From positions 20,514,630-20,578,629 of the forward strand of contig CM019701.1 in the NCBI GenBank assembly GCA_009760885.1: a stretch of 64,000 nucleotides of DNA. The letters are read 5' to 3'. The notes below the pieces were generated by a model. It did not search any database and was not told where the DNA came from. It was given only the letters and a program-made list of their open reading frames with translations. Made by a program: the position numbers and the translations under genes. This DNA comes from Achatina immaculata. Taxonomy: Eukaryota; Mollusca; Gastropoda; Stylommatophora; Achatinidae. The stretch's first letter is position 1, and every line of letters starts with the position of its first letter. This document shows, piece by piece, positions 5,945 to 63,515 of this stretch.

Positions 5945-6195
5945 TTGACAAGTAAGGGGTGGATCAGAGAAAATGTCGCTAGTGTCGGGGTCGAGTTGGA
6001 TTAGCGGCAGATGACGATAAATAATTTTCTTAACCATCTGACCATGCGGGTGGAAAGGCAGTACTAACTTAACTCTGTCAGATGAGTAACAGGCTTTTTC
6101 CTGAATACTTCTTTGCAGCTCACTAGTTGGATACGGTTGAAGGCTTTCTGGGTAGTGGCGATGACGGAAAAGTTCTAATAACTTGTTGGACTGAT
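5945..6195 (-). pseudogene. PLE polyprotein segment upstream of the endonuclease (inverted piece)
   Basis: Minus-strand reading gives a stretch with RVKLVLPFHPHGQ, RHLPLIQLDPDT and FSDPPLT. It is collinear with RVKLVLTYHPHS, RHLHLLQTEPET and FGEPPLV of the copy at 7448-8059. In an intact element it would lie directly N-terminal to the sequence starting LAYKREPN at 6198 on the opposite strand. The coding region is therefore split by an inversion whose junction is at about 6190-6198. The upstream RT core is missing. Confidence 0.75.
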
Positions 6196-6197
6196 CT

Positions 6198-6692
6198 ATG
6201 TTAGCATACAAACGTGAGCCAAACATTAAGGACATCCTTGTCCACAGCCACTTGAAGCAGAGCCTTACATATGTTGGCACCAGAAAATGTAACCGCCTCC
6301 GCTGCGTTGCCTGCTCGGTTTTCTGGGAAACGAAAACAATCACCTTTCCCAAAACTATCCTCACTCTTCATGAGGGATTCACATGCGAGTCCCGTAATGT
6401 GATATATGTCATCATTTGCAAAAGATGGAGGATAAAGTATATTGGTGAGACTGGCCTCAGATTAGGGGACCGCTTACAAAAACATCTGTACTATATCGAC
6501 CAGCATGCTTTGAAACCAGTCCCAAATCATTTCAATGGCCCCAACCACAGAAGTAAATCTGATTTTCTGGTAACAGCCATCAAACAATCTCATGCAGATG
6601 ACACAAGCAGCCTGGCGCTTGAGAACCTCTGCATTCAAAATTATGGGACACTGGAACCACATGGGTTAAACTCGCTGTTCAGCTACACTTAA
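6198..6692 (+). CDS. PLE GIY-YIG endonuclease domain (partial ORF, 164 aa)
   Basis: This encodes the C-terminal endonuclease region of a Penelope-like retroelement, which nicks target DNA for insertion. Visible features are a Cys-rich lead-in (RKCNRLRCVAC), the GIY-YIG core (VIYVIICKRW then KYIGETGLRLGDR), then QKHL and HFNGPNHRSKSD. The ORF ends at a normal PLE position, followed by an (AATC)n tail at about 6800-6838. The first Met is only the first in-frame one after the inversion junction, not a true start. The Cys expected after KR (CKRC) is Trp here. RT is absent, so the ORF is non-autonomous. Confidence 0.8.
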   Translation: MLAYKREPNIKDILVHSHLKQSLTYVGTRKCNRLRCVACSVFWETKTITFPKTILTLHEGFTCESRNVIYVIICKRWRIKYIGETGLRLGDRLQKHLYYIDQHALKPVPNHFNGPNHRSKSDFLVTAIKQSHADDTSSLALENLCIQNYGTLEPHGLNSLFSYT

Positions 6693-14937: not shown

Positions 14938-14949
14938 AAAGGGCATTAT

Positions 14950-16381
14950 GGTTCTAAGGACTGTTATAGCTGGAGGTAGGGTGGGGGATACGCTCTCCAC
15001 TCCAATAAAAGATCTCCAAGGCGTGAGTTTCAAATAGTCTCTGACAGTCAAGTCCAGCTCCTGGCCTTCTCGTGGCAGAACTGTTCAAACTCACAGTAGA
15101 AGGGGCGAAGGCGAATATCTGGCCCCTGAAAACTAGACGCTTCGTGTAGATGAGAGTCTTGTTTGGTAGCTCATCTACCGCTGCTGGCAAGATTCTTCAG
15201 CTGCCGTGCGCGGAGTGGGGCTCTTCTTGGACAGTGAAGAAAGGTGCGAATGGGATTGCTGCGCGGCGCCACTGTGGAAAAGGCGAAAGAAAGGATTACG
15301 TGAAGTAATCAGTAGTCTCGAGGTCAGGACTGCTAAAATCACGGCACCTCTGCTCTGGAGGTCGGCCACGTCCTATGTGCACTCATACCGGGCGAAATGC
15401 CTGAAACGGCTTAACCCAGGGGTTAAGACACTGCTGGCGAAATTCTTCGGATGCCGCGTGTGGAGTGAAACTCCTCCCGGCTAATGAAGAAAATGCGAAA
15501 AAGCAATTAGGACTGCATGTGGCGCTGATGTGAAAAGGTGATGGAAAGGATAACGTGAAGCTTAATCGGTATGTCCAGTAGTCTCGCGGCGAGAGCTACT
15601 CATACCATGGCACCCCTGCTGACTGCGTCCGATATACACCCATACTGGTGAAATATGCCTAAACCGGCTTAAACCAGAGAGTGAAACTTGATGGCTACTC
15701 ATGTCACGGTACCTCCGCCCTAGAGGTCGGTCACGTCCTAAACACGCACATACTGGGATAATACGCCTAAACCGGCTCAAACCAGGGGTGAAACTTACTA
15801 GTGGCGAGGATTCGTCCTCCTGGACAAAAGCTCCATCCTGGTCACAACTAGGAAAGGTAGCGACCACGACCACAAAATGGTGAAGTCGGAGACACTGGAC
15901 TAGGGCAGTCTAGATAGGCAACCACCTCTCACCCGGCGATGTATGCGTATCCTAATCACGCTGAGGTTTTCCGGTGAGAAAGTCCAAAGCTGGACTGGAT
16001 GGGCAACCACCTCTCACCTGGCGGTATCCAAAACACGTCGAGGTTTTCCGGTGAGAAAGAATCTAGCCTGGATAGGCAACTACCTCTCACCCAGCGGGAA
16101 TATACTGATATCCAAAATACATATAGGTTTTCCAGTGAGAAAGTCCAACTCTAGATTAAACTGGTCCAACAAAAACCACGGTGTCGTGCAATCCCGCTTC
16201 CGAGACCCACCGAGGACACAGGTTCAAGCCATGCGATACTCTGAACCTCTTGTGGTCCTCTCGGAGATCTTGTGTGGTCCTTTCGGGGACCACGAGATTT
16301 ATCGATGACCACAGGAGTCAATTCAGTAGGATCATGGGGCGGTCTTGATGGTAGAAGTGAACGAAGAAGAAGAAGCAGAAG
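14950..16381 (+). mobile_element. Element F copy 1: unclassified (GAA)n-tailed retroposon with TSD
   Basis: The 1432-bp unit is flanked by identical 12-bp direct repeats AAAGGGCATTAT (14938-14949 and 16382-16393) and ends in GAACGAAGAAGAAGAAG. That combination indicates TPRT-type insertion. It is far more GC-rich than its surroundings and has no long ORF with a recognisable domain. Internally it contains three degenerate copies of a unit with CACGTCCT, CAYACTGG and CTAAACCGGCTTAA-CCAGGGGTGAAACT (about 15366, 15625, 15725). It also has three copies of an approximately 75-85-bp unit GGCAACCACCTCTCACC-GGTTTTCCGGTGAGAAAG (15917, 16004, 16075). Two further copies lie at 57838-58878 (inverted) and 62181-63503. 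Confidence 0.8.
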
Positions 16382-16518
16382 AAAGGGCATTATCGTTTTC
16401 TTCACGTTCTCACACATCTTGTTTGTAATAGCACAAATGGACTAAAACATAGAACACGTGGAAGTAATAAAACAGAGAAATATGAATATGTTATTTTAGC
16501 AGAAATATCAATACATTA

Positions 16519-18452: not shown

Positions 18453-20872
18453 ATAGATTAATTGAAATATGTTTAACAGAGGGCATGGTCATTGGAGGCA
18501 CAATATTCCCACACAAAGAGATACATAAAACAACATGGATATCTCCAGATGATAGAACTAGAAACCAGATAGACCATTTTTGTATTAGAAAGCAATACAG
18601 AACATCTCTCATGGATGTAAGGGCTTATAGGGGTGCAGATGTCAACAGTGATCACAACCTGTGCATAGGGAAAATAAAACTAAAATTGAAAAGTCAACAC
18701 AAGAAATCAGTACACAGAAAGATAAACATCCACAGCCTACAAGAAGAAAATACTAACATTAATTTCAATCAGGAACTTGCCAATCATTCCAAAACACCCA
18801 GTGAAGTTGAGGAGATAGGTATAGATGAGTTATGGAATTCTTACAGCACAGCCATAATCACAGCAGCAAAAGTAAGCGCTGGATTGGAAAAACCAAATAG
18901 AAAAGCATGGATATCAGATAAAACATGGAAGTATATACATGAAAGACGAGCAGTCAAATTAAACATGTTGAATGCAAAAGCAGATCATGAAAGAGATTCG
19001 GCAAAAGCAAAATACAAAGACATAGACAAGAAAGTAAAAAGTTCAGCTAGAAGGGATAAAAGAGAATACATAGACAATATGGCGAAAGAGGCAGAAAAAG
19101 CAGCAAAAACAGGAGACAGCAAAACTTTATATAACATACAAAAGAGGCTAACAGGTACTATTACATCTAAAGAAAGACCAATCCTTAGCAAAACTGGAAC
19201 ACTATTAACATCAAATAAAGACCAAAAGCAAAGATGGGCTGAACACTTCCAAGAAATACTCAATCGACCACACCCAAAAGAATTGTTAAACCTTGAAACT
19301 GACTTACCAGCCCCACAACTAAATGTCAATCTAGATGAAATTGAATTGCATGAAATTGAAACAGCAGTGAATTTAATGGCTAACAACAAAGCTGCAGGTG
19401 AAGATGAAATAACAGCCGAGATGCTAAAAGCTATCAATAGTGACAACATGAGACAACTACAGAGAATGTTTAACAAGATTTGGAAAGAAGAAAAGGTCCC
19501 TTCTAATTGGAAGAAGGGAATCATTGTGAAAATACCAAAAAAGGGCAACCTTAGTGACTGTAACAACTGGAGAGGAGTAACCTTAATATCAGTTGTGTCA
19601 AAAGTATTTTGCAAGGTCATTTTGAATAGACTCAAAGATATAGTGGATACTGCAATGAGAGAAGAACAAGCAGGATTTCGAAAAGGGAGAAGCTGTCTCG
19701 ACCAGATCTTTACTCTCAGAATAATACTTAAAGAACATATTGAAAAGCAGAAACCATTAATACTGAATTTCATAGATTTTAAGAAGGCATTTGATAGCAT
19801 ACACAGAGATTCATTATAGAGAATTTTATGTCTATATGGAATACCATCTAAAATTGTCAACATCATTAAGGACTTATACAATGGATATGGTTGTGCAGTC
19901 AAGACAGAAGAAGGGATGAGTGAATGGTTCCAGATTGAAACAGGCGTGAAACAAGGATGTATACTGTCTCCTTTACTTTTTGGGATTACAATAGACTTCA
20001 TAATGAAAAAATGCTGCACAGGTAACACAGGTATTGACTGGGTACATGGGACCCAACTAGAAGATCTTGATTTTGCTGATGACATAACTCTTATCAGTAA
20101 TAATGTGAATTCCATGCAAGAAAAAACAGATAGCCTATCTTCACTGGCTAGCAAAATAGGACTTGAAATTAACAAGGACAAAACAAAAATAATGAAAATT
20201 CCCATCAATCAAAATGGAAAAATACACATAGAAGGGACAGATATTGAAGAAGTCAATCAATTTGCATACCTTGGCAGCTACATAGACCAGGATGGTGACA
20301 CTAGAAAGGAAGTTAGGATCAGAATTGCAAAAGCAGCATCAATCTTCAAGAATCTTGAGAACATATGGAATTCAAAAGTTATAAGCACAAAAACCAAGTT
20401 AAGACTATTCAATTCAAATGTAATATCCACCCTCATTTATGCATGCGAAAGCTGGAAAACAACTAAAGAAATAGAAAAGAAATTAGACTCTTTTGAAAAC
20501 AAATGCCTAAGGAAAATACTCGGCATCAAGTGGAATGAATTCAAGAACAATGCAGAGATAAGACAGATGACTGAACAACAACCAGTCTCACGGGTGATCA
20601 GGAAAAGGAGATGGACATATGTTGGCCACTTGATGAGAAGAAATGAGCAGAGAATCCCAAAACAAGCTATCAAGTGGAACACAACAGGCCGAAGAAAAAG
20701 GGGCAGACCGCGTGAAACTCTGAAGAGAACATTATTAAGAGAGGCCAAGTTAACAGGCATAAAATCCTTTGATGAGGTTGAAAGACTCGCCGAAGACAGG
20801 AAAAATTGGCGAACTACTTTGCGAGCCCTATGTGACGTCTAACGGCACGGGAAGGATATAAGATATAAGATA
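18453..20872 (+). mobile_element. LINE A, long copy, 5'-truncated in the endonuclease
   Basis: The 2420-bp insertion is bounded by AGTTATTAGGC(T/G)TATTAT at 18435-18452 and 20873-20890, an 18-bp TSD with one mismatch. The 3' end is GGCACGGGAAGGATATAAGATATAAGA, a short (TATAAGA)n tail. It begins within the C-terminal part of an APE-type endonuclease and continues through the full RT. It is the best copy of this family in the window and the reference for the fragments at 13.1, 16.5, 34.7, 41.1, 47.1 and 53.0 kb. Confidence 0.9.
18485..20842 (+). pseudogene. LINE A endonuclease/reverse transcriptase ORF with one nonsense codon (785 codons)
   Basis: One frame runs 18485-20842 and is broken only by TAG at 19817-19819 (SLxRIL; the paralog at 28.5 kb has Trp there, so TGG to TAG is likely). 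Domains: end of the APE endonuclease (NQIDH at about 27-31, SDHNL at about 57), a long basic linker (about 65-240), then RT. The RT has KKGNLSDCNNWRGVTL (about 352-367), AGFRKGRSC (about 396-404), IDFKKAFDSIHRDS (motif A), GVKQGCILSP (motif B), DLDFADDI (motif C, about 526-533) and a C-terminal RRWTYVGHLMRR (about 708). The APE N-terminus is missing, so 18485 is simply the first in-frame Met. It is a retroelement enzyme, not a host gene. Confidence 0.9.
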
Positions 20873-28264: not shown

Positions 28265-28547
28265 ATCTTGGTTAATGGTCAAGCCCACTTTTATTGGTAC
28301 ATCTCTCAGATGTATACAGATATTGATGACTTCTTGCATATTTTCCTCCACCAGGTCGACGTCATCAGCATATCCTAGTATTTTAGCTTGTTTTTCTGTA
28401 CTGCTTTCTTCTTTTGCTTTTCTGATTGAATAGTAATGGGGATAATGTACCACCTTGTTTTAAACCAGTTCTTGTAGAGAAGGGTTCTGACATTCTTCCT
28501 TTATATATTACTATATTTTGTGTATCCTCCATACATATTCTGGTCAG
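28265..28547. repeat. 283-bp direct repeat, left copy
   Basis: LINE C sequence (minus-strand RT motif C region) identical over all 283 bases, by my reading, to 30340-30622. The two copies exactly bracket LINE A2. See findings. Confidence 0.9.
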
Positions 28548-30326
28548 TATTATGACAACTTAGCAGAGACAGCAGAGAAAGCAGCATATACAAATGACAT
28601 GAAAACCATATATAAAATCACAAAGCAGATGACGGGTAACTTCAATACAAGATGTGAAAGTGCAGTAAGAACACAAAATGGACAACTGGTCAGTGGAGAA
28701 AGAGAAAAAATTGAAAGATGGAGGGAACACTTTAACACCCTACTAAACAGAACACAAGCAGCACAAGCAATAGATATACCTGAAGCAAAAGCGGAACTAA
28801 ACATCAATACAGGACCAATAACAATAAATGAAGTAAAAGAGGCGATAAAGATGCTAAAATCAGACAGGGCACCAGGTGAAGATGAAGTGACTGCTGAGAT
28901 GTTGAAAGCAGAAGAAACAGAAACACCAAAACAACTTTGCCGGATATTACAACAAATTTGGGATTTAGAAAAAGCCCCAGAGGAGTGGAAAACTGGTCTT
29001 ATAGTAAAACTACCAAAGAAGGGTGACCTCAGAGATTGCGGGAACTGGAGAGGCATTACCCTACTGCCACTCACTAGTAAAGTATTTTGCAGAATAATCA
29101 TCAACAGAATTGTACCAATACTTGAGGAAAAACTTCGGAAAGAGCAGGCAGGATTTAGGAAAGGAAGATCATGCATAGACCATATATTTGTACTTAGACA
29201 AATATTAGAACAGGCAAATGAGTGGCATAGCACAACATATGCATTATTCATAGATTTTGAGAAAGCCTTTGACAGTGTCAACAGAGATGCACTGTGGAAA
29301 ATCCTAAGATGGCATGGCCTCCCCCATAAAATAGTTAATGTAATCAAAGCCCTATACGAGGGTTTTCAGTGCAAAGTTATCTGTGGAGAACATACCTCCA
29401 GCAGCTTTAGGGTACAAACAGGAGTGAAACAGGGATGTGTACTATCACCAACATTATTTATCTTGGCAGTAGACTGGTTAATGAAGGAGGCAACATCAGA
29501 CAAACGCAGAGGATTACAATGGACCCTTAACACAGTGCTGGAGGACCTTGACTTTGCGGACGACATTTGTCTATTATCAAGCAGTCACAAAGATATGCAA
29601 GATAAAATAAACAAGTTAACCCAGAATGCAAACAACATAGGACTAAAGATCAACGTAGGAAAGACAAAATTAATGAAGCAAAATGTGAACAACAGAAATG
29701 TACTCAGAGTAGATAACAAGTTAGTGGAGGAGGTCAACGAATTTGTATACCTTGGCAGCAGAGTAGTAGAAAATGGAGACAGCACAGAGGACATCAACAG
29801 CAGACTTACTAGAGCAAACCAGGCTTTTGCAATGCTACAGAATATATGGAAATCAAATAAACTAAGCATAAATATGAAAATCAGGATATTTAAGAGTAAT
29901 GTTCTAAGTGTACTACTCTATGGTAGTGAATGCTGGAAAATCACCAAAACCATAGAAAACAAGTTGAATTCTTTCCAGACTAAATGTTTACGTAGAATTA
30001 AAAAAATATTTTGGCCAAACACCATAAGAAATAACATCTTATTGGCAGAAATGCAGATGAAACCACTGACAACAATTATTGAGGAAAGACGCTGGCGATG
30101 GTTGGGACATGTGCTCAGAATGACTGACAACTCACTACCAAAAATAGCACTAAGATGGACACCACAGGGGAACAGAAGTAAGGGTAGACCAAAAGAGACA
30201 TGGAGAAGAACAACAGAAAGGATGTTGAGCAATAGAGGGCTCACCTGGGCAAGAGCAGAAAAAAAGGCGAAAGACAGGCATTTGTGGAAAACCCTTGTGG
30301 AAGCCCCATGTGCCCTGGGCACTTAA
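28548..30326 (+). CDS. LINE A2 reverse transcriptase ORF (about 592 codons of element sequence, intact)
   Basis: Open from the truncation point to the stop TAA at 30324-30326. The reading frame stays open into the flanking repeat (first ATG 28518), but that part is LINE C sequence, so no native start is present. RT landmarks: APGEDEVTAEMLKAE, KKGDLRDCGNWRGITLLPL, AGFRKGRSCIDHIFVLRQIL, FIDFEKAFDSVNRDALW (motif A), QTGVKQGCVLSPTLF (motif B), DLDFADDICLLSS (motif C, FADD intact), VYLGSRV, then C-terminal RRWRWLGHVLRM and GRPKETWRRT. All RT catalytic motifs look intact. Without the endonuclease half it cannot be autonomous. Confidence 0.9.
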   Translation, partial: YYDNLAETAEKAAYTNDMKTIYKITKQMTGNFNTRCESAVRTQNGQLVSGEREKIERWREHFNTLLNRTQAAQAIDIPEAKAELNINTGPITINEVKEAIKMLKSDRAPGEDEVTAEMLKAEETETPKQLCRILQQIWDLEKAPEEWKTGLIVKLPKKGDLRDCGNWRGITLLPLTSKVFCRIIINRIVPILEEKLRKEQAGFRKGRSCIDHIFVLRQILEQANEWHSTTYALFIDFEKAFDSVNRDALWKILRWHGLPHKIVNVIKALYEGFQCKVICGEHTSSSFRVQTGVKQGCVLSPTLFILAVDWLMKEATSDKRRGLQWTLNTVLEDLDFADDICLLSSSHKDMQDKINKLTQNANNIGLKINVGKTKLMKQNVNNRNVLRVDNKLVEEVNEFVYLGSRVVENGDSTEDINSRLTRANQAFAMLQNIWKSNKLSINMKIRIFKSNVLSVLLYGSECWKITKTIENKLNSFQTKCLRRIKKIFWPNTIRNNILLAEMQMKPLTTIIEERRWRWLGHVLRMTDNSLPKIALRWTPQGNRSKGRPKETWRRTTERMLSNRGLTWARAEKKAKDRHLWKTLVEAPCALGT

Positions 30327-30339
30327 GGTTCAGAGAGAG
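28548..30339 (+). mobile_element. LINE A2, 5'-truncated, flanked by 283-bp direct repeats
   Basis: A 1792-bp insertion between the identical 283-bp LINE C segments. It begins in the linker upstream of the RT and ends GGGCACTTAAGGTTCAGAGAGAGA, a short (GA)n tail. It is related to LINE A in motif layout but clearly separate. A second, older fragment is at 2469-2911. Confidence 0.9.
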
Positions 30340-30622
30340 ATCTTGGTTAATGGTCAAGCCCACTTTTATTGGTACATCTCTCAGATGTATACAGATATTG
30401 ATGACTTCTTGCATATTTTCCTCCACCAGGTCGACGTCATCAGCATATCCTAGTATTTTAGCTTGTTTTTCTGTACTGCTTTCTTCTTTTGCTTTTCTGA
30501 TTGAATAGTAATGGGGATAATGTACCACCTTGTTTTAAACCAGTTCTTGTAGAGAAGGGTTCTGACATTCTTCCTTTATATATTACTATATTTTGTGTAT
30601 CCTCCATACATATTCTGGTCAG
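30340..30622. repeat. 283-bp direct repeat, right copy
   Basis: Identical to 28265-28547. After it, LINE C continues uninterrupted (ATTGATTAATTTATTAGG). Confidence 0.9.
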
Positions 30623-35660: not shown

Positions 35661-38539
35661 TCAGTCATTTGCATGCCCCTTGCGGAACTTTGCCTTCCTA
35701 ACAGCTCTCCTGTAGGCCTCTCGATTGTAAGCTAGATGCCCTGCTGCTAATGCATCCATTTGCAGATTATCAACGATGTCTTGCAATCATCTTCGCCTTG
35801 GTCTTCCTCTTTATTTTTCCCCATTACGTATCTTTCCTTTCTATAAATTCTCATGACGTTTAATGTGTCCAAAATATTTAAGTTTTCTCTGTTTAATCCT
35901 CTTTACTAGCCAGCCGTCTTCAATATTAAGTTCTTGTAGTATGGATATATTTGTAATTTTTTATGTCCACAATATTTGAAGAACTCTTCTTCATCATTTA
36001 CATTCAAAGCATTTACCATTTATGTGTTTCTCAGGTGTTTTGTTAAATGTTCAAGTCTCACAGGTATTTGCTGGAACAGTAAAGATGCATGCCCTTAAAA
36101 ATCTTACTTTTGTAGTTCTGTCTTTTCCTCTCCACAGCTTCTTTAGTTGTTTTACTCACTGAAGAGCGATAGATGTCCTCCCTTTAATTTCCCTCATTGT
36201 ATCTCCATTATTAGTTAGTAATTATCCAAGATTTTAAAAAGTCTTCACCTCTTCAAATTTTTCCTCATTGATACATACTTCAGCTGCCTTATTTGTTTTG
36301 TCAGTTATCATCAATTTAGTTTTCTTCATATTAAGATAGATGTTTTACTCTTCATTATTCTTGCGGACTGACGTAATTAGTTTTCCCATTCCTTTTTGTG
36401 TTGTGGGCAGTAATACTGTGTCATCAGCATATCTAATCTCTGGTATTTCGTAATATTCTTTGTCTACCATGTTCTCTAACATTCCTCATTATATTTTCAG
36501 TATACAAGTTAAATAAGTAAGTTGACAGTATGCACCCCTGTCGGACCCCTTGTTTTATGTCAAACCAAGTTGTTGTTTCACTATTTATTCTTACTGCTGC
36601 CTGTTGGTCTAGATACAGCAGTGATATTAATTGTATCAAATGTGTTGGAAATCCTATTTTTTCCATTATTTCCCAAAGTGTCTGGTGTTGCACACAATCA
36701 AATGACTTTGAATAATCTATATCACATTAAATTCTATGCATTTCTCTATTGTTAATCTTATATTGAATATATTATCTCGTGTTCCTCTTCCTTGTCTAAA
36801 ACCAGCTTGGACCATATTGACTTCTTCTTCTATTTTCTCACAAAGTCCACTCATTATGATTTTTAACAGAATTTTACTGGCATGACTAATCAGGGCAACA
36901 ATTCTGTAGTTTGTGCATAGTTTCAAGTTACCCTTTTTTTAGGAGTGGTATGAATATAAAAACATAAACTAGGAACAGCTTTATTATTTAACGATAATAC
37001 GCTTGTAAAATTTTGGTATCAGACCTTTACTGCAGTGCTTTGTGTATAGTTGTATGCTTATACACTAATTAATGTGTGGTATGAATATAGTTCTTTTCCA
37101 TTCACCTGAATGCCATATCTTTTTACATAGTGCATGATAAATTGTTGCACATTCCTTTCCTCCTGCTTTAATAAGTTCAGCTGTAATCTCATCACATCCT
37201 GGTGATTTACCATTTTTCATATTCTTTATTGCCCATAAAACTTCTTCTACTGTCTGTTTGGGTTCTTTCTCCTTCAATAATAATTCATATTGTTGATTTC
37301 TGCTTTCACAGCCATTTGTATCATGCATTCCTCTGCAATATTCCTTCCATCTTTCAAGAATTTCCTCTGTCTCTGTCAAGGTCTTCCCTATATCATCACA
37401 AATTACATTTAGCTTAGGTGTGATATTTCTCGTCAATGTCTTCATTTCTTTAAACATTTCACTATCTCTTCCACACTTTTGATATCTTATATTCTTTCAC
37501 AACAATCTTGTATGTATTGTTTTTTGTCTTTTCTTATGTTTCCTCTTACTTCTTTTATTAAAGATTTATATTACTCTTTCCATCCATTCTTTTGTGTTTT
37601 CTTTACTGGAACCATGTCTTTAGCTGTTGTTATTAAGATATCTCTGGCCTGCGTAGTCAGTTCACGTAGTGTCATCTCCTCCTGTACAGCCATCAGGATC
37701 TCGAAACAGTTCCTCACTTGTATACCATATTGTTCTGGTATTTTTTAAAGATCAAAGTGGAATGGTTTTGATCCCCTAACTCTCTTTTTTAAAATCTTAT
37801 CTTAATGTCTGCTATTGATAACTCATGGTCAGTGTCACAATCAGCACCTGGTAAAGTTTTTGCTGATGTTATGCTTGATCTCCACCTTCTTTGCACTAAA
37901 ATGTAATCTATTTGATTCTTGGTTTTTCCTTCAGATGATGTTCCTGTGTAAAGTCTTCTTGGATATTGTCTTGAAAGTGTGTTAGCGATCATTAGCTGTT
38001 TTTTTCATGAAAATCGCTATTAGATTGTCACCTGCCTGTCTCATTTCTATGTCCTAAACTAAATTTCCCTAAAGCATATCCTTCGTCTTCTGATCCTTCT
38101 GTTCCAATCTTTGCATTAAAATCGCCCATTATTAATACAGTATCATTTTATCGTAATCTTCTACTTCCTCTTTGTCTAATCTGCTGCTGATTTAGGTGCA
38201 TATATCAGAATAATTGTTCCATTTCTAGGAGTGTCCTTAAGTCTGATAGTGAGTATTCTGTCACTTACTGGATTGTAACCTAGTAATGCTTTTGATGTTA
38301 ATTTGTGCAAGTAAAAAGCCACTCCATTCTTTCCTCCTAATTCTCCACCAGAATATATAAAGATACTGTCATTCTCACCCTTGAAGTGTCCTGATCCTTT
38401 CCATCTGTTCGCAGATTCCCAAAATGTGTATCCCCATTCTTTTCAGCTCATCACTTATTATTTGATTCTTTCCCTCATACACGTCTCACATTTCATGTTC
38501 CTACTCTTATTTTTCTTTTTAGTTTGATGCAGAGGTTTT
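35661..38539 (-). mobile_element. RTE-type LINE nested in LINE A, 13-bp TSD, includes endonuclease region
   Basis: Identical 13-bp repeats CATATCCATTGTA at 35648-35660 and 38540-38552 bracket 2879 bp. On minus, 5' to 3': endonuclease pieces (KNGVAFYLHKLTSKALLGYNP and RILTIRLKD near 38310-38220, then TKNQIDYILVQRRWRSSI and DCDTDHELSIADI near 37930-37800), linker, KNMKNGKSPGCDEITAELIKAG, VALISHASKILLKII, QAGFRQGRGTRDNIFNIRLTIEKC, WFDIKQGVRQGCILSTYLFNLYTENIMRN (motif B region), a YADDT region near 36430, and the HANE-type 3' end at 35661. It is the longest RTE copy here. Multiple frame breaks and a PLE insertion make it dead. Confidence 0.9.
36958..37075. mobile_element. 118-bp Penelope terminal-repeat fragment nested in the RTE
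   Basis: Identical 13-bp repeats GTGGTATGAATAT at 36945-36957 and 37076-37088. The insert's left half (TAAACTAGGAACAGCTTTATTA) is in the orientation of the 34320-34370 terminal repeat. Its right half (GGTATCAGACCTTTACTGCAGTGCTT, TATACACTAATT) is the reverse complement of the adjacent part of that repeat (34260-34330). So the fragment contains an internal inversion. It interrupts the RTE ORF between its linker and RT. Confidence 0.85.
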
Positions 38540-42824: not shown

Positions 42825-43600
42825 TAGGACAGTGTGTTCACTTGAATGTTTATGTTCGATACTGGAGTAAATTAAACACTGAGATTTGACCGACGAGTCA
42901 GTTTATTTTGTATCAAACTATATGTATACTCAGGTGAGAACCTCCCTATATTTAGATTTCTCCTATTGTTTGGTTTGTAAAATCATATTCAGTTTTATCG
43001 CTGTTGCACTCACTTGTACTTGATCAATGGTAATGATCATATTAACACAGGACCGTGGAGAAAATCAATAAAACTGAGTTCAGAAACTATAGCGGCAGAC
43101 AAAAGGGCTCAAGCAAAGAGTGTAATCTCACAGTCTGCGAACTATAATGTTAATATGAGTGGCAGTAAAAGAACAATGCGAAGACAAAATTACGTCCAAC
43201 ATCATAATGTGAAATGTAAAGTGAAGAATCAGATCTACTTTTTTGTTTTCCATCAAAATTATCAGTACAAGACCAGCAGGATCTCCTCCTTTTTAGCTGC
43301 CTGAGTAGGGCAGAAAATATGTCAGTGATATTCTTTTGGTTAGAGGGAGGAAAAAACCATACGAATGCCTTTCATCTATTACTAGATGATGAATATGAGC
43401 CGACTTTAACATGGCACTATATATATATATATATATATATATGTAATCTTTCCTGTTTTGTTCTGTTATTATTCTGCTTAATTTTGGATTCTTTTCTCAT
43501 TTGATCACACAATTTAAAATTTCCGTTTTGCTACAGTTTAAAATTTCCCAATCCAAATAAAGGGATGGATGAATGACATTTCATCAATGAACTAATACGA
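42825..43600. other. No gene recognised; (TA)n at about 43419-43441
   Basis: A 96-codon plus frame at 43014-43304 is Lys/Asn/Gln-rich without a domain. It is just downstream (minus sense) of the IQ gene's exon and could be intronic or 3'. No call. Confidence 0.45.
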
Positions 43601-43616
43601 GTTTTGCAAAATTTAC

Positions 43617-44657
43617 CTCATATTCTTGACGATTAGCGACTTCTCTTCTTGCTAGGTATCCTCGATAATGAGACTGAATTGTGACAGCCGCTTCGTTCTC
43701 TCTGTCAAGTTCATGATAGCTGTCTTCACGAGGTCGAGGCTGGGATCCGCTTGTTTCATTTCTTGACAAGTATCCTCTGTATCCAGCCTGGATCTTGGCT
43801 GCAGCTTTATCTTCTTCACTCCATACATTTGCATCTTCACAAGCGGAAGTCATGTTCTTCCTCGTCAGATAACCACGAATGCCGCCCTGAATCTTTGCCG
43901 CAGCTCTGTTCTCAGCATCAAGACGTTTGCGGGTTTGGTAACCACGAAAACCAGCTTGAATTGTCGTTGCGGCCTTATCTTCATTTCTCACACTTGTATG
44001 TGAAACTAACTGTTGACGTGTCTCATATCCGCGATATGCAGCTTGAATTTTGGTAGCAGCCTCGTCTTCATCAATAAAATTTTTAGGAGGTGTTGACCTC
44101 ATATGCTCACAATCTGTACCAGTTGCTTGCACTTTCTTTTGTAAGGAATCTTCCCTTTTGTCATTAGAATTTTCACCTCGCTGATTCGAGCTGGATCCTA
44201 GCTGCCTTCGTGTTTGATAACCTCGATAGGCAGCCTGTATTTTAGCTGCAGAACTTTCCTTTTCTTTCGACATGTTGTAGGAAAAAGTCTGTTTCTTTTG
44301 AATATGTGCAGTTGGTGTGGACAGTTTTGACTGTCTCAGTTCATTACGTGTCTGGTGTCCCCGATAAACAGCTTGGATTTTAGTTGCAGCATTATCCAAT
44401 TCTTCTAGTCTGTCGTCATAAAAGTACTGCGTGTTTTGTGCAGGAACAGGTCCTTCTGGTAACTTGTCGCCACGTAATTCTTTACGGGTCTTGTGCCCAC
44501 GGTACGCTCCTTGAATTTTGGCTGCAGCATTGTCCTCTTCTTTCAGTCTGTCAGTAGAAAGTTGTCGTGAAATTTCTGATACTGGCGCTTTTATGTCATT
44601 GAGTATTTTGTTGTGCGTTTTGTGACCACGACTAACTTGTGGAATGGTGTCAATAGA
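43617..44657 (-). CDS. IQ-motif protein, large internal exon (347 codons, eight IQ motifs)
   Basis: Calmodulin (or calmodulin-like light chain) binding is the expected role of tandem IQ motifs. The eight motifs, on minus from high to low coordinate, begin AAAKIQGAYRGHKTRK, AATKIQAVYRGHQTRN, SAAKIQAAYRGYQTRR, AATKIQAAYRGYETRQ, AATTIQAGFRGYQTRK, AAAKIQGGIRGYLTRK, AAAKIQAGYRGYLSRN and AAVTIQSHYRGYLARR, all IQxxxRGxxxR. A degenerate VSRGHKTHN precedes them. Boundaries: acceptor TTTTTCTCAG before TCTATTGAC (44657) and donor GAATATGAG-GTAAAT after 43617, both phase 0. Read-through instead stops at 43584. The short, spaced IQ repeats resemble arthropod igloo/neuromodulin-like or sperm IQ proteins, but I cannot assign an ortholog. 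It is intact and codon-clean, unlike all surrounding sequence. Confidence 0.8.
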
Positions 44658-44936
44658 CTGAGAAAAACAGTTCATAATTCATTAAATTTTTTATATAATT
44701 ATTATTTGCAACAAAATAATATTTCAAACTTTTTAACTGATATCTATGCAAGACACAGTTCAATAACAAAAGAATGCAGAAAAATTGTTATTAAAACATT
44801 GTAAGCTCATTGTATAAGTAGTATTTTTACACAGTGACGATGCCTAAGTGGTATGATTTCTTTAGATCTTCAATGAATTCTCATTTATACTGTTCCTAAA
44901 AATAATGGGATCTGTAACAGCAACACATTCACTAAC

Positions 44937-45059: not shown

Positions 45060-45872
45060 TTAAAATTACAGTAGGTACAATATTGTACTTACGTGAGACT
45101 TTTAATACACATTTTCATATAATAAGGATTTCTAATTAGAAATGTACGAGTTCTATGTCAGATGTCAGTTAACTGTCAGTTACAGGGTAAACACCAGTTC
45201 TCCAGATCCCGTGGGGCGGGGCAGGGATTTGAGAGATTAATGGTCACTTACCTAGAGCAGTTGCCTTGATGTGTGCATGCTGGATTTTTAATTTTGCCAC
45301 CTTCCCCCCCCCCCCCCCCCAATTAAAAAAAAACACTGACCCTACCGTGACTCGAACCCATGTCTCTCGGATAAAAATAGTTTTAAGCTGTGATTGCTCT
45401 AGAATGTTTTTTTAAACTGGCACAGTTGTAATTGTTTTTCACCTTGTACAATGTACTATCCGAAATACTGGTTTTGATAACATAAAATTCCGTGCTTTAT
45501 ACTTTGTTTTTAAAATGTAAAATTAAACATACTTTACAAACATCAGTGGCAATTAAATGTTCGTGTGAATTGTTATTTCTTACTTAGCTGCCACGAGATT
45601 TAATCTTTACAAAGTGCTGACATACTGAACCAAAGTCAAAAGTGACTGATTCTGCTGCCATGCAAATTGAGCACCATCAAAACCTACTAGCCCAATTATC
45701 TTCCACCTGGTTTCTCTGGTTGCTTTTTACTAAATTTGTGATAATATAAACTGGTTATAGTAATCGATGACATCCAAAACTTTCAGTTTTTCTCTTCTTT
45801 TATCTGTAATTTACCTGCAATTGCCGGTTAACGCAATCACTGGTTTTAAGTATTCTGTCAAAACCTAATCTT
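45060..45872. other. Probable intron or upstream region of the IQ gene
   Basis: No exon located. Contains a poly(C) run at about 45303-45321 followed by A-run, and on minus a B-box-like GGTTCGAGTC at about 45346-45355 without a matching A box, so no tRNA is called. Confidence 0.4.
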
Positions 45873-46146
45873 TTTTTCAGTATAGCCGAATGCTAATGTG
45901 AATATGAATAGTAGAACAGGCATAAACGGTAAAAACAGGAATATCTTCTTCTTCTTCGTTCGCACTTTCTGTCTATATCTGCAGTCCTGTCTCTTGGATA
46001 AATTTCACGAGACAGGACTGCAGATATAGACAGACAGTGCGAACGAAGAAGAAGAAGAAGAAGAAGATATTCCTGTTTTTACCGTTTATGCCTGTTCTAC
46101 AAGTCTACTATTCATATTCACATTAGCATTCGGCTATACTGAAAAA
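45873..46146. repeat. Long near-perfect inverted repeat (foldback element)
   Basis: The left arm 45873-45993 and right arm 46009-46146 are reverse complements around a loop of about 15 nt (TTGGATAAATTTCAC). Outermost matched sequence is TTTCAGTATAGCCGAATG. The innermost is GCAGTCCTGTCTC. The arms differ by an 8-nt indel (right arm has ACAAGTCT-type extra sequence near 46100) and by a few (GAA) units. Each arm carries CGAACGAAGAAGAAG, the same 3' tail motif as element F. It probably lies in an intron or upstream of the IQ gene. Confidence 0.85.
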
Positions 46147-46149
46147 ACA

Positions 46150-57837: not shown

Positions 57838-58878
57838 CACCGGGTGAGAGGTGGTTGCCAATCCAGTCCAGCGTTGGACTTTCTCACAGGAAAATCTCAA
57901 CATGATTAGGATACGCATACATCTCCGCCAGGTGAGAGGTGGTTGCCTATCTAGAGTTGCACTGGTCCAGTGTCTCCGACTTCAGCATTTTGTGGTCGTG
58001 GCCGCTACCCTTCCTAGTTGTGACCAGGACGGAGCTTTTGTCCAGAAGGACGAATCTTCGCCACTAGTAAGTTTCATCCCTGGGTTGAGCCGGTTTAGAC
58101 ATATTATCCCAGTATGGGCGTGTTTAGGACATGACCGACTCTAGAGCGGAGGTACCGTGACATGGTTAGCCATCAAGTTTCACCCCTGGTTTAAGCCGGT
58201 TTAGGCATATTTCACCAGTATGGGTGTATATGGACGTGGCCGGCATCTAGAGCAGAGATGCCGTGGTATGAGTAGCTGGACATACCGATTAAGCTTCACT
58301 TTATCCTTTCCATCACCTTTTCACATCGATGCCGCAACCCTGATTTCTTATTCGCATTTTCTTCATTGAGCGGAAAGAGTTTCACTCCACGCGCGGCATC
58401 CGAAAAATCTCGCCAGAAGTGTCTTAACCTCTGTGTTAAGCCCGTTCAAGCATTTCACCCGATATGAGTGCACTTAGGACGTGGCCGACCTCCAGACCGG
58501 AGATGTCGTGATTTGACTACTGTTTACTTTTGCTTAATCCTTTCTTTCACCTTTTCCACAGTGTTGCCGCGAGGAAACCCCATTCACACCTTTCTCCACT
58601 GGCCGGGAGGAGCCACACTCCACGCACGGCAGCTGAAGAATCTCGCCAGCAGCGGTAGATGAGCTACCAAACATGACTCACTCTCATCTACCCGAAGCGT
58701 CTGGATTTCAGGCGCTAGATATTCACCTTCACCCCTTCTCTTGTCAGTTTAAACAGTTCTGCCACGAGAAGGCCAGGAGCTGGACTTGACTGTCAAAGGC
58801 TATTTGAGACGCACGCGATTGGAGTGGAGAGCCATGTATCCTCCACCCCACCTCCGGCAATAACAGTCCTTAGAACCA
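57838..58878 (-). mobile_element. Element F copy 2, inverted and truncated
   Basis: Minus strand matches element F from its start (reverse complement of 58878: TTCTAAGGACTGTTATTGCC) through the CACGTC…CCTAAACCGG units and two GGTTTTCC-GTGAGAAAG units, ending at about 57838. The terminal part with the (GAA)n tail is absent, so it is truncated or rearranged at its 3' end. A partial second copy of the GTTTAAACAGTTC-CCACGAGAAGGCCA piece lies at 58952-58983. No TSD identified. Confidence 0.8.
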
Positions 58879-59019
58879 ATGAGATAATGATCGCTAACAC
58901 ACTTTCTAGACAACATCCAAGAAGACTTTGCACATGGACATCACCTGATGTCAGTTTAAACAGTTCCTCCACGAGAAGGCCACAAAGCACCCGCACCATG
59001 TAACAGGTAAAACCAATCA

Positions 59020-62168: not shown

Positions 62169-62180
62169 TACAGAGAAAGA

Positions 62181-63503
62181 TTCTAAGGACTGTAAGAGCT
62201 GGAGGTGGGGTGAGAGATACGCTCTCCACTCCAATTAAATGTCTCCATGGCGTGTGTCTCAAATAGCCTCTGACAGTCAAAGTCCAGGTCCTGGCCTTCT
62301 CGTGGTGGAACTGTTTAAACTAACAGGAGAAGGGGCGAAAGGCGAATATCTGGCGCCTGAAAACCAGACGCTCTTGGGGTAAATGAGACTCGTTAGTCTT
62401 GGTTGATAGCTACTCTAGGAGAAGGAAAGCACCTGCTCGCAAGATTCTTCAGCTGCCGTGCGTGGGGTGAAACTCCTCCTGCCAACGAAGAAAAATGCGA
62501 TTATGGTTGCGCCGCCGTGGAAAAGGTGATGGAATGGATTAAGTAGCCAGTAGTCTCGTGTCAGGACTACTCATATCAAGGCACCTCTGCTCTGGATGCC
62601 GGCCACGTCCTCACCCATACTGGCTCAAATACTTAAACTAGTTTAACCCAGGGGTTAAATATGCTAGGAAGATTCTTTGACTGCTGTGCGTGGGGTGAAA
62701 CTCCTCTAGGCCAATGAAGAAAAATGTGATTAGGGTTGCCGCGCGGCGCCGCTGTGAAAAAGGTGATGGAAAGGATTAAGTGAAGTTTAATCGGTATGTC
62801 CAGTAGACTCGGAGTGAGGGCTACTCATACCATGGCATCTCTGCCCTATAGGCCGGCCACATCCTATATACTAGGGCAATATGCCTAAACCAGCTTAAAC
62901 CAGGGGTGAAACTTGATGGCTACGCATATCGCGGTGCCTCCGCTCTAGAGGCCGGTCACGTCCTATATACACCCATACTGGAATAATATGCCTAAACCGG
63001 CTTATCCCAGGGGTGAAACTCACTAGTGGCGAGGATTCGTCCTCCTCGAAAAAAGCTCCGTCCTTGTCACAACTAGAAAGGGTAGCGGCCACAACCACAA
63101 AATGCTGAAGTCGGAGACACTGGACCAGTGCAGTTTAGATAGGCAACCACCTCTCACCCGATGGGGATATATTCATATCCAAATCACTTTGAGGTTTTCC
63201 GGTGAGAAAGTCCAGCTCTAAGCTGGATGGGCAACCACCTCTCACCCGGCTGGGATATATTCATTTCCAAACCACGTCGAGGTTTTCCGGTGAGGAAGTC
63301 CAACTCTAGACTAAACTGGTGCAACGAAAACCACAGTGTCACACAATGCCGCTTCTGTGACCCACCGAGAATATAGGCCCAAAACTCGCGATGCTCTGAG
63401 CCTCCTTCCTAAATGAGACTATCGCGAGAACCACAGGAGCAAATTCAGTAGAATCACAGGGCGATCTTGATGGTAGACGCGAACGAAGAAGAAGAAGAAT
63501 GAG
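62181..63503 (+). mobile_element. Element F copy 3 with perfect 12-bp TSD
   Basis: Bounded by identical TACAGAGAAAGA at 62169-62180 and 63504-63515. Starts TTCTAAGGACTGTAAGAGC and ends CGCGAACGAAGAAGAAGAAGAATG. Same unit order as copy 1: CCTGGCCTTCTCGTGG region, three CTAAACCGGCTTAA-type units (62640, 62885, 62990), then two or three GGCAACCACCTCTCACCCG…GGTTTTCCGGTGAGAAAG units (63140-63320). There is no long ORF. Colour of sequence (GC-rich, internal repeats) matches copies 1 and 2. Confidence 0.85.
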
Positions 63504-63515
63504 TACAGAGAAAGA

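Follow-up and report, generated by a model that had tools for sequence, protein, structure and literature searches.

A noncoding, GAA-tailed retroposon with a variable internal tandem array in the genome of the snail Achatina immaculata

The closest described relatives in organization of the element reported here are the VNTR composites (SVA, LAVA, PVA, and FVA), the SINEs that share a 3' tail with a LINE, and the non-autonomous LINE derivatives such as RTESINE1, Bov-A2, and RTE1-N1_LA. In apes, SVA elements rely on LINE-1, SINEs are typically a few hundred bp in length, and RTESINE1, Bov-A2, and RTE1-N1_LA lack a complete LINE open reading frame. Target-site duplications (TSDs), 5' truncation, and a constant tail are together the mark of target-primed reverse transcription (TPRT), which is established for LINEs. 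The relevant section of one account describes variable tandem arrays in non-LTR retroposons as peculiar to hominoid primates (PMC4432496). Among the matches listed in a search of the open-licence PMC literature, no comparable element was found outside primates.

Here we describe a family of repeats, element F, from a 64-kb stretch of Achatina immaculata DNA (the window). Our preferred reading, to which we assign a probability of roughly 85%, is that F is a non-autonomous non-LTR retroposon, about 1.33-1.81 kb long, whose RNA would be taken in trans by the protein of a partner LINE via the terminal sequence GCGAAC(GAA)n. As the initial annotation described, three related copies (F1, F2, and F3) are present in the window, with F1 and F3 bounded by perfect 12-bp TSDs (Table 1). 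As a control, 20,000 random flank pairs were drawn within the window, and only ~0.1% of them had 12 or more consecutive bases in common. Gap-free identity is 915/1020 for F1-F2, 1062/1283 for F1-F3, and 835/998 for F2-F3, and the copies have a GC content of 50-51% versus 37% for the window. F2 has the same 5' end as the other two copies and breaks off inside its second C unit. A profile built from the three copies recovered these and a single 38-bp fragment at E values up to 1, with no further copies in the window, and no empty F sites were found within it. The region at 58882-58982, upstream of F2, consists of this F fragment (34-38 bp) fused to 67 bp with 90% identity to positions 37931-37997, a LINE region of the window; the junction may be a patch or a template-switch product.

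From 5' to 3', F consists of ~230 bp of single-copy sequence, a tandem block arranged as a1-B1-a2-B2-B3-partial a3, an array of C units, ~210 bp of single-copy sequence, and the tail GCGAAC(GAA)n. The initial annotation had recognized two kinds of degenerate tandem unit in this element; both are real, with the small correction that the repeating units measure ~107-250 bp (B units of ~107 bp and degenerate a-B units of ~250 bp) and ~88 bp (the C-unit spacing, 85 and 73 bp in F1), and the short motifs quoted are conserved parts inside them. B units in matching places of separate copies show 85.6% identity, against 75.4% for B units in different places within a copy (nine comparisons each), with corresponding values for a units of 80.8% (six comparisons) and 75.0% (three comparisons). 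As same-place units across copies are more alike than different-place units within a copy, the duplications that made the a/B block seem to predate the F family itself. The C array is variable in number, with two units in 15 of 27 genomic loci, three in ten, four in one, and seven in one.

Table 1. Positions of element F copies, their parts, and related features in the 64-kb window
Feature	Position	Strand	Basis or remark
F1, full-length element	14950-16381	+	sequence, TSDs, genome search
F1 left TSD, 12 bp, AAAGGGCATTAT	14938-14949	.	exact duplicate
F1 right TSD, AAAGGGCATTAT	16382-16393	.	exact duplicate
F1 5' single-copy region, 5' end GGTTCTAAGGACTGTTA	14950-15180	+	exact 17-mer search
F1 tandem block, apparently old, [a1-B1][a2-B2][B3][partial a3], unit ~250/107 bp	15181-15916	+	partial a3 recognized by eye
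F1 variable array, three C units (15917-15982, 16002-16059, 16075-16143)	15917-16143	+	
F1 3' single-copy region	16144-16356	+	
F1 tail, GTGAAC(GAA)n with the bases after it; part common to candidate partner LINE	16357-16381	+	
F3, full-length element	62181-63503	+	sequence, TSDs
F3 left TSD, 12 bp, TACAGAGAAAGA	62169-62180	.	exact duplicate
F3 right TSD, TACAGAGAAAGA	63504-63515	.	exact duplicate
F3 variable array, two C units (63142-63210, 63230-63298)	63142-63298	+	
F3 tail, GCGAAC(GAA)n with the bases after it	63479-63503	+	
F2, intact 5' end, 3' part missing from second C unit on	57838-58880	-	alignment, profile
38-bp F fragment, profile positions 114-151, adjoining 67-bp LINE fragment, upstream of F2	58945-58982	-	profile
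Fold-back copy of candidate partner LINE 3' end, two inverted tails	45872-46147	.	clue to partner family

Several other features of the window were observed. A 5'-truncated RTE LINE at approximately 28548-30339 lies between identical direct repeats of 283 bp (28265-28547 and 30340-30622), which are either a recent duplication or a target-site duplication of exceptional length. A reading frame at 43584-44678 contains five stretches with the IQ calmodulin-binding motif and has distant relatives that include several mollusc proteins; it is likely a host gene exon. The segment at 7448-8089 matches the GIY-YIG domain and that at 6195-6692 reads similarly, and we presume both to be Penelope-type remnants.

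Searches of the 1.65-Gb assembly that holds the window show that F is a large family. The exact 17-mer of the F 5' end occurs 3,719 times in the genome (reversed control, 0), and the tail 16-mer GCGAACGAAGAAGAAG is found at 18,473 sites (reversed control, 4). With F1 as the query, the best 40 of 15,888 first-look candidates were scored and 30 loci were taken, 28 of which have both ends; L028 lacks the 3' end and L032 the 5' end in the stretch examined. As these 28 copies were chosen as the best matches to F1 they form a biased set rather than a random sample, in which the mean K2P distance to the F consensus is 0.057 (range 0.044-0.069). L025 and L026 carry identical elements, and L026 was therefore left out of the subsequent counts, leaving 27 loci. 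In two cases, F elements stand head to tail: L025/L026, spaced 1719 bp apart and identical over the element, and L027/L028, spaced 1446 bp apart; these pairs may reflect either recent local tandem duplication or an assembly effect. In viral contigs, two F patterns had no matches, and the tail pattern had two, one lying inside a phage-like protein gene and the other unlike F or the LINE by eye.

Compared with 702 controls in which flanks were swapped, 14 of the 27 loci have a flank duplication exceeding the 99% level and 17 one exceeding the 95% level; ten loci have no convincing TSD. Among the copies examined the 5' end is constant, reading GGTTCTAAGG with few variants. Copies that are 5'-truncated and retain the 3' end were also recovered, two of them with exact TSDs (L079, AGTGAAATATC; L083, GTTGCAGACG) and one, L029, with GATCAGTTTATTC on both sides as judged by eye; L056 and L067 also carry 5'-truncated F, and no duplication was established for either. 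F thus combines TSDs and 5' truncation with a constant 3' end, and its formation by TPRT is well supported by the TSDs of truncated copies together with the constant tail. The initial proposal that F is a GAA-tailed, noncoding, internally repeated TPRT retroposon, and no recognized SINE or LINE, therefore stands, given the TSDs in 14 of 27 loci, the truncated copies with TSDs, and a consensus with no frame over 80 codons. The 300-bp left flanks of the 27 loci share nothing, which speaks against a longer element around F; three right flanks share a repeat that is out of register.

The initial annotation had suggested looking for a LINE partner through the 3' end and tail of F, and this search led to a candidate that has only the end of the tail in common with it. 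The fold-back at 45872-46147 is made up of a LINE 3' end and its flank as an inverted duplicate, the two arms 85% alike, and bears the same tail as F. With the fold-back as the query, the best 40 of 68 first-look candidates were scored and eight 8-kb stretches were examined, four of which (L065, L066, L067, and L069) contain a LINE of ~4.5 kb, with the copies 96.6-99.2% alike. This LINE carries Exo_endo_phos (APE-type endonuclease), RVT_1, and RNase_H domains, the domain set of I-group LINEs; we take the order EN-RT-RNase H to mark the I group, which suggests that the LINE belongs there. Each of the four full-length copies is flanked by TSDs of ~11-13 bp (by eye), which in one case include a mismatch. 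Stops or frameshifts interrupt the frames of all four long copies; the family is young. In the copy read closely (L045), 15 nt separate the stop codon from the GAA repeat, and the element ends in GCGAAC(GAA)n, as does F. The terminal 20 bases of the F consensus and of the LINE are identical (20 of 20), and only ~6 of these lie outside the GAA repeat. Pieces of F were found in 4 of the 38 loci collected for the LINE (156,025 bases, LINE included). The LINEs of the window itself were considered as partners and rejected: one RTE LINE terminates with GAGAGA, a second LINE has a GAT repeat at its end, and the end of a third was not recognized.

A census of tail sites, covering the first 20 consecutive sites on one contig, which are neighbors and not a random draw, found ten F elements, seven ordinary LINE 3' ends, two tail-only insertions, and one internally deleted LINE (L081). 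The tail-only insertions (L078 and L090) consist of ~20 nt of LINE-type tail flanked by 11-12-bp TSDs, AACATCACACAA and AGTAAATATTA, and are assigned to the partner LINE on the single base before GCGAAC; they represent extreme 5' truncation. As half of the sampled tail sites are F, an extrapolation from these 20 neighboring sites gives roughly 9,000 copies of F that retain the tail in the genome. F and the candidate partner LINE, with its derivatives, cover all 20 sampled sites, their TSD sizes overlap, and they have the end in common, all of which favors the use of this LINE in trans. The shortness of the shared stretch, GCGAAC plus GAA repeats, speaks against it; a section of one paper describes a SINE/LINE pair that shares ~100 bases (PMC3747384).

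The short common end leaves room for the alternative that F was moved by a different, unseen LINE with the same tail motif, which we consider unlikely. Before the GAA repeat the F consensus reads GGTAGAAGCGAAC and the LINE GACAGTGCGAAC, with continuous similarity starting only at GCGAAC. The F copies are also 4-7% from their consensus as compared with the 96.6-99.2% identity among the four full-length LINE copies, so much of the activity of F may predate the wave of the partner LINE. Against this alternative, the 20 consecutive tail sites contained no third family sharing the tail.

A second alternative derives F from an autonomous LINE by internal deletion, with a LINE 5' UTR joined to a LINE 3' end in the manner of RTESINE1 or Bov-A2. 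Such derivatives are known (PMC3747384, in the section concerned), one deleted copy of the partner LINE (L081) is among the 20 tail sites, and the LINE 5' region contains an exact match to 14 bases of the F body (E = 0.97), which we take to be chance. The two elements nonetheless begin differently, the LINE with CCCCTGGGAACAACTG and F with GGTTCTAAGG, and the F body scores 19 against LINE positions 1-1000, a value reached by 7 of 100 shuffles. The initial annotation had named longer relatives with a reverse transcriptase frame as a finding that would overturn its reading; no such relatives appeared in a small sample of the 5'-end sites, the first 10 of the 3,719 with ~320 bp read at each. Eight of these sites stay in F through the stretch read, and none leads to the start of a LINE. 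At L091 (351 bp), F consensus positions 1-268 are followed by C-terminal coding sequence from an RTE LINE that has the same orientation as F, which we take to be a nested insertion or a chimera, and L096 departs from F after ~35 bp. With no similarity above chance beyond the shared end, F is not an internal deletion of the partner LINE, the unlike 5' end and body excluding that origin, and derivation from any autonomous LINE in this way is very unlikely. Simple TPRT does not account for the missing 3' part of F2, L091, and L096, which could have been lost through a subsequent deletion, a nested insertion, or template switching.

The F body is noncoding. In six frames, the longest open reading frame in the consensus of 28 genomic copies is 80 codons, and as the consensus holds no frame beyond this length, F is not a decayed gene. 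The longest frame in the window copies, 134 codons, is found in F1 only and has no Pfam match and no homologous protein. Indels between copies are mostly not in threes (multiples of three in 4/15, 4/23, and 4/22), and the F1-F3 substitutions fall at 66, 83, and 72 by codon position, with no clear codon rhythm; a coding origin was rejected on these grounds. A conserved core domain was likewise rejected, since the best 110-column stretch did not stand out from permuted columns (equaled in 1327 and 968 of 5000 permutations). Searches for ribozymes or other known RNAs found no Rfam family at its curated threshold in the window, and the weak listings for F (E 0.35-8.5) are all below family thresholds. 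Folding gave a z score of -1.6 for the 5' region, two-sided changes in 10 of 285 pairs of a three-copy consensus fold, which is not convincing, and one short weak hairpin only in 71 folded C units.

The initial annotation also called for a check of the F 5' end for RNA polymerase III A and B boxes, and none were found: the best match to the box consensus pair in the first 200 nt was equaled or bettered in 193/300 shuffles for F1, 208/300 for F2, 205/300 for F3, and 220/300 for the consensus. TTTT, a Pol III stop signal, is present in both C units of the F consensus, and with box pairs no better than those of shuffles this makes Pol III transcription of F seem unlikely. The idea that F is a very long SINE, a Pol III transcript with a LINE tail, is thus highly improbable, since its LINE-shared tail, lack of an ORF, TSDs, and fixed 5' end are accompanied by no detectable tRNA-, 5S-, or 7SL-derived promoter, no tRNA, and no match of the three F copies to tRNA, 5S, 7SL, or SRP/Alu families at E values up to 10.

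Under our preferred reading of F as a retroposon mobilized in trans, its RNA would be made by RNA polymerase II, or another polymerase. The LINE protein would then capture this RNA through its 3' end, nick the target, and prime reverse transcription on the GAA repeat, giving rise to the TSD. The number of C units may shift by unequal exchange or by template slippage.

A comparison of F with the described systems shows both likenesses and disparities. Like the VNTR composites, F is noncoding and kilobase-sized, carries an internal GC-rich variable tandem array (2-7 C units in 27 copies) in a central position, has TSDs, and apparently depends on an unrelated LINE. In contrast to them, it possesses no Alu-like 5' part (no SRP/Alu Rfam match), no CT-hexamer repeat in its 5' end as judged by eye, and no poly(A) tail; its tail is (GAA)n, common to an EN-RT-RNase H LINE, and its C units are ~88 bp as opposed to the 30-50 bp of VNTR composite units. 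To our knowledge, animal L1 elements lack an RNase H domain, whereas the candidate partner LINE has one. F thus works like a primate VNTR composite but, without the Alu-like 5' part, CT hexamers, and poly(A), is not a member of that group. F also resembles the SINE/LINE pairs that share a 3' tail, in which, according to a section of one paper, the LINE is parasitized by way of the 3' end and the terminal microsatellite that it has in common with the SINE (PMC3747384), but differs in its ~1.4-kb length, in having no Pol III promoter that we could find, and in a shared stretch of only ~6 nt plus the repeat. With RTESINE1, Bov-A2, and RTE1-N1_LA it has in common a LINE 3' end and TPRT; the same section reports that those elements carry the LINE's own 5' end (PMC3747384), whereas the 5' end and body of F are unrelated to the partner LINE found, as compared with one LINE and ten F 5'-end sites.

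In conclusion, we tentatively suggest, as a possibility somewhat short of even odds, that F could be an independently evolved, non-primate counterpart of the VNTR composites, that its partner LINE may select RNA by little more than GCGAAC and a GAA repeat, and that F may have needed only that end to become very common. If F is a second, unrelated case, it would help to show whether variable arrays are a recurrent route to the mobilization of noncoding RNA. The partner LINE is almost without a 3' UTR, so the RNA feature that is recognized may be a few bases plus the repeat. Recognition of so few bases would make template choice by LINEs testable with very short constructs.
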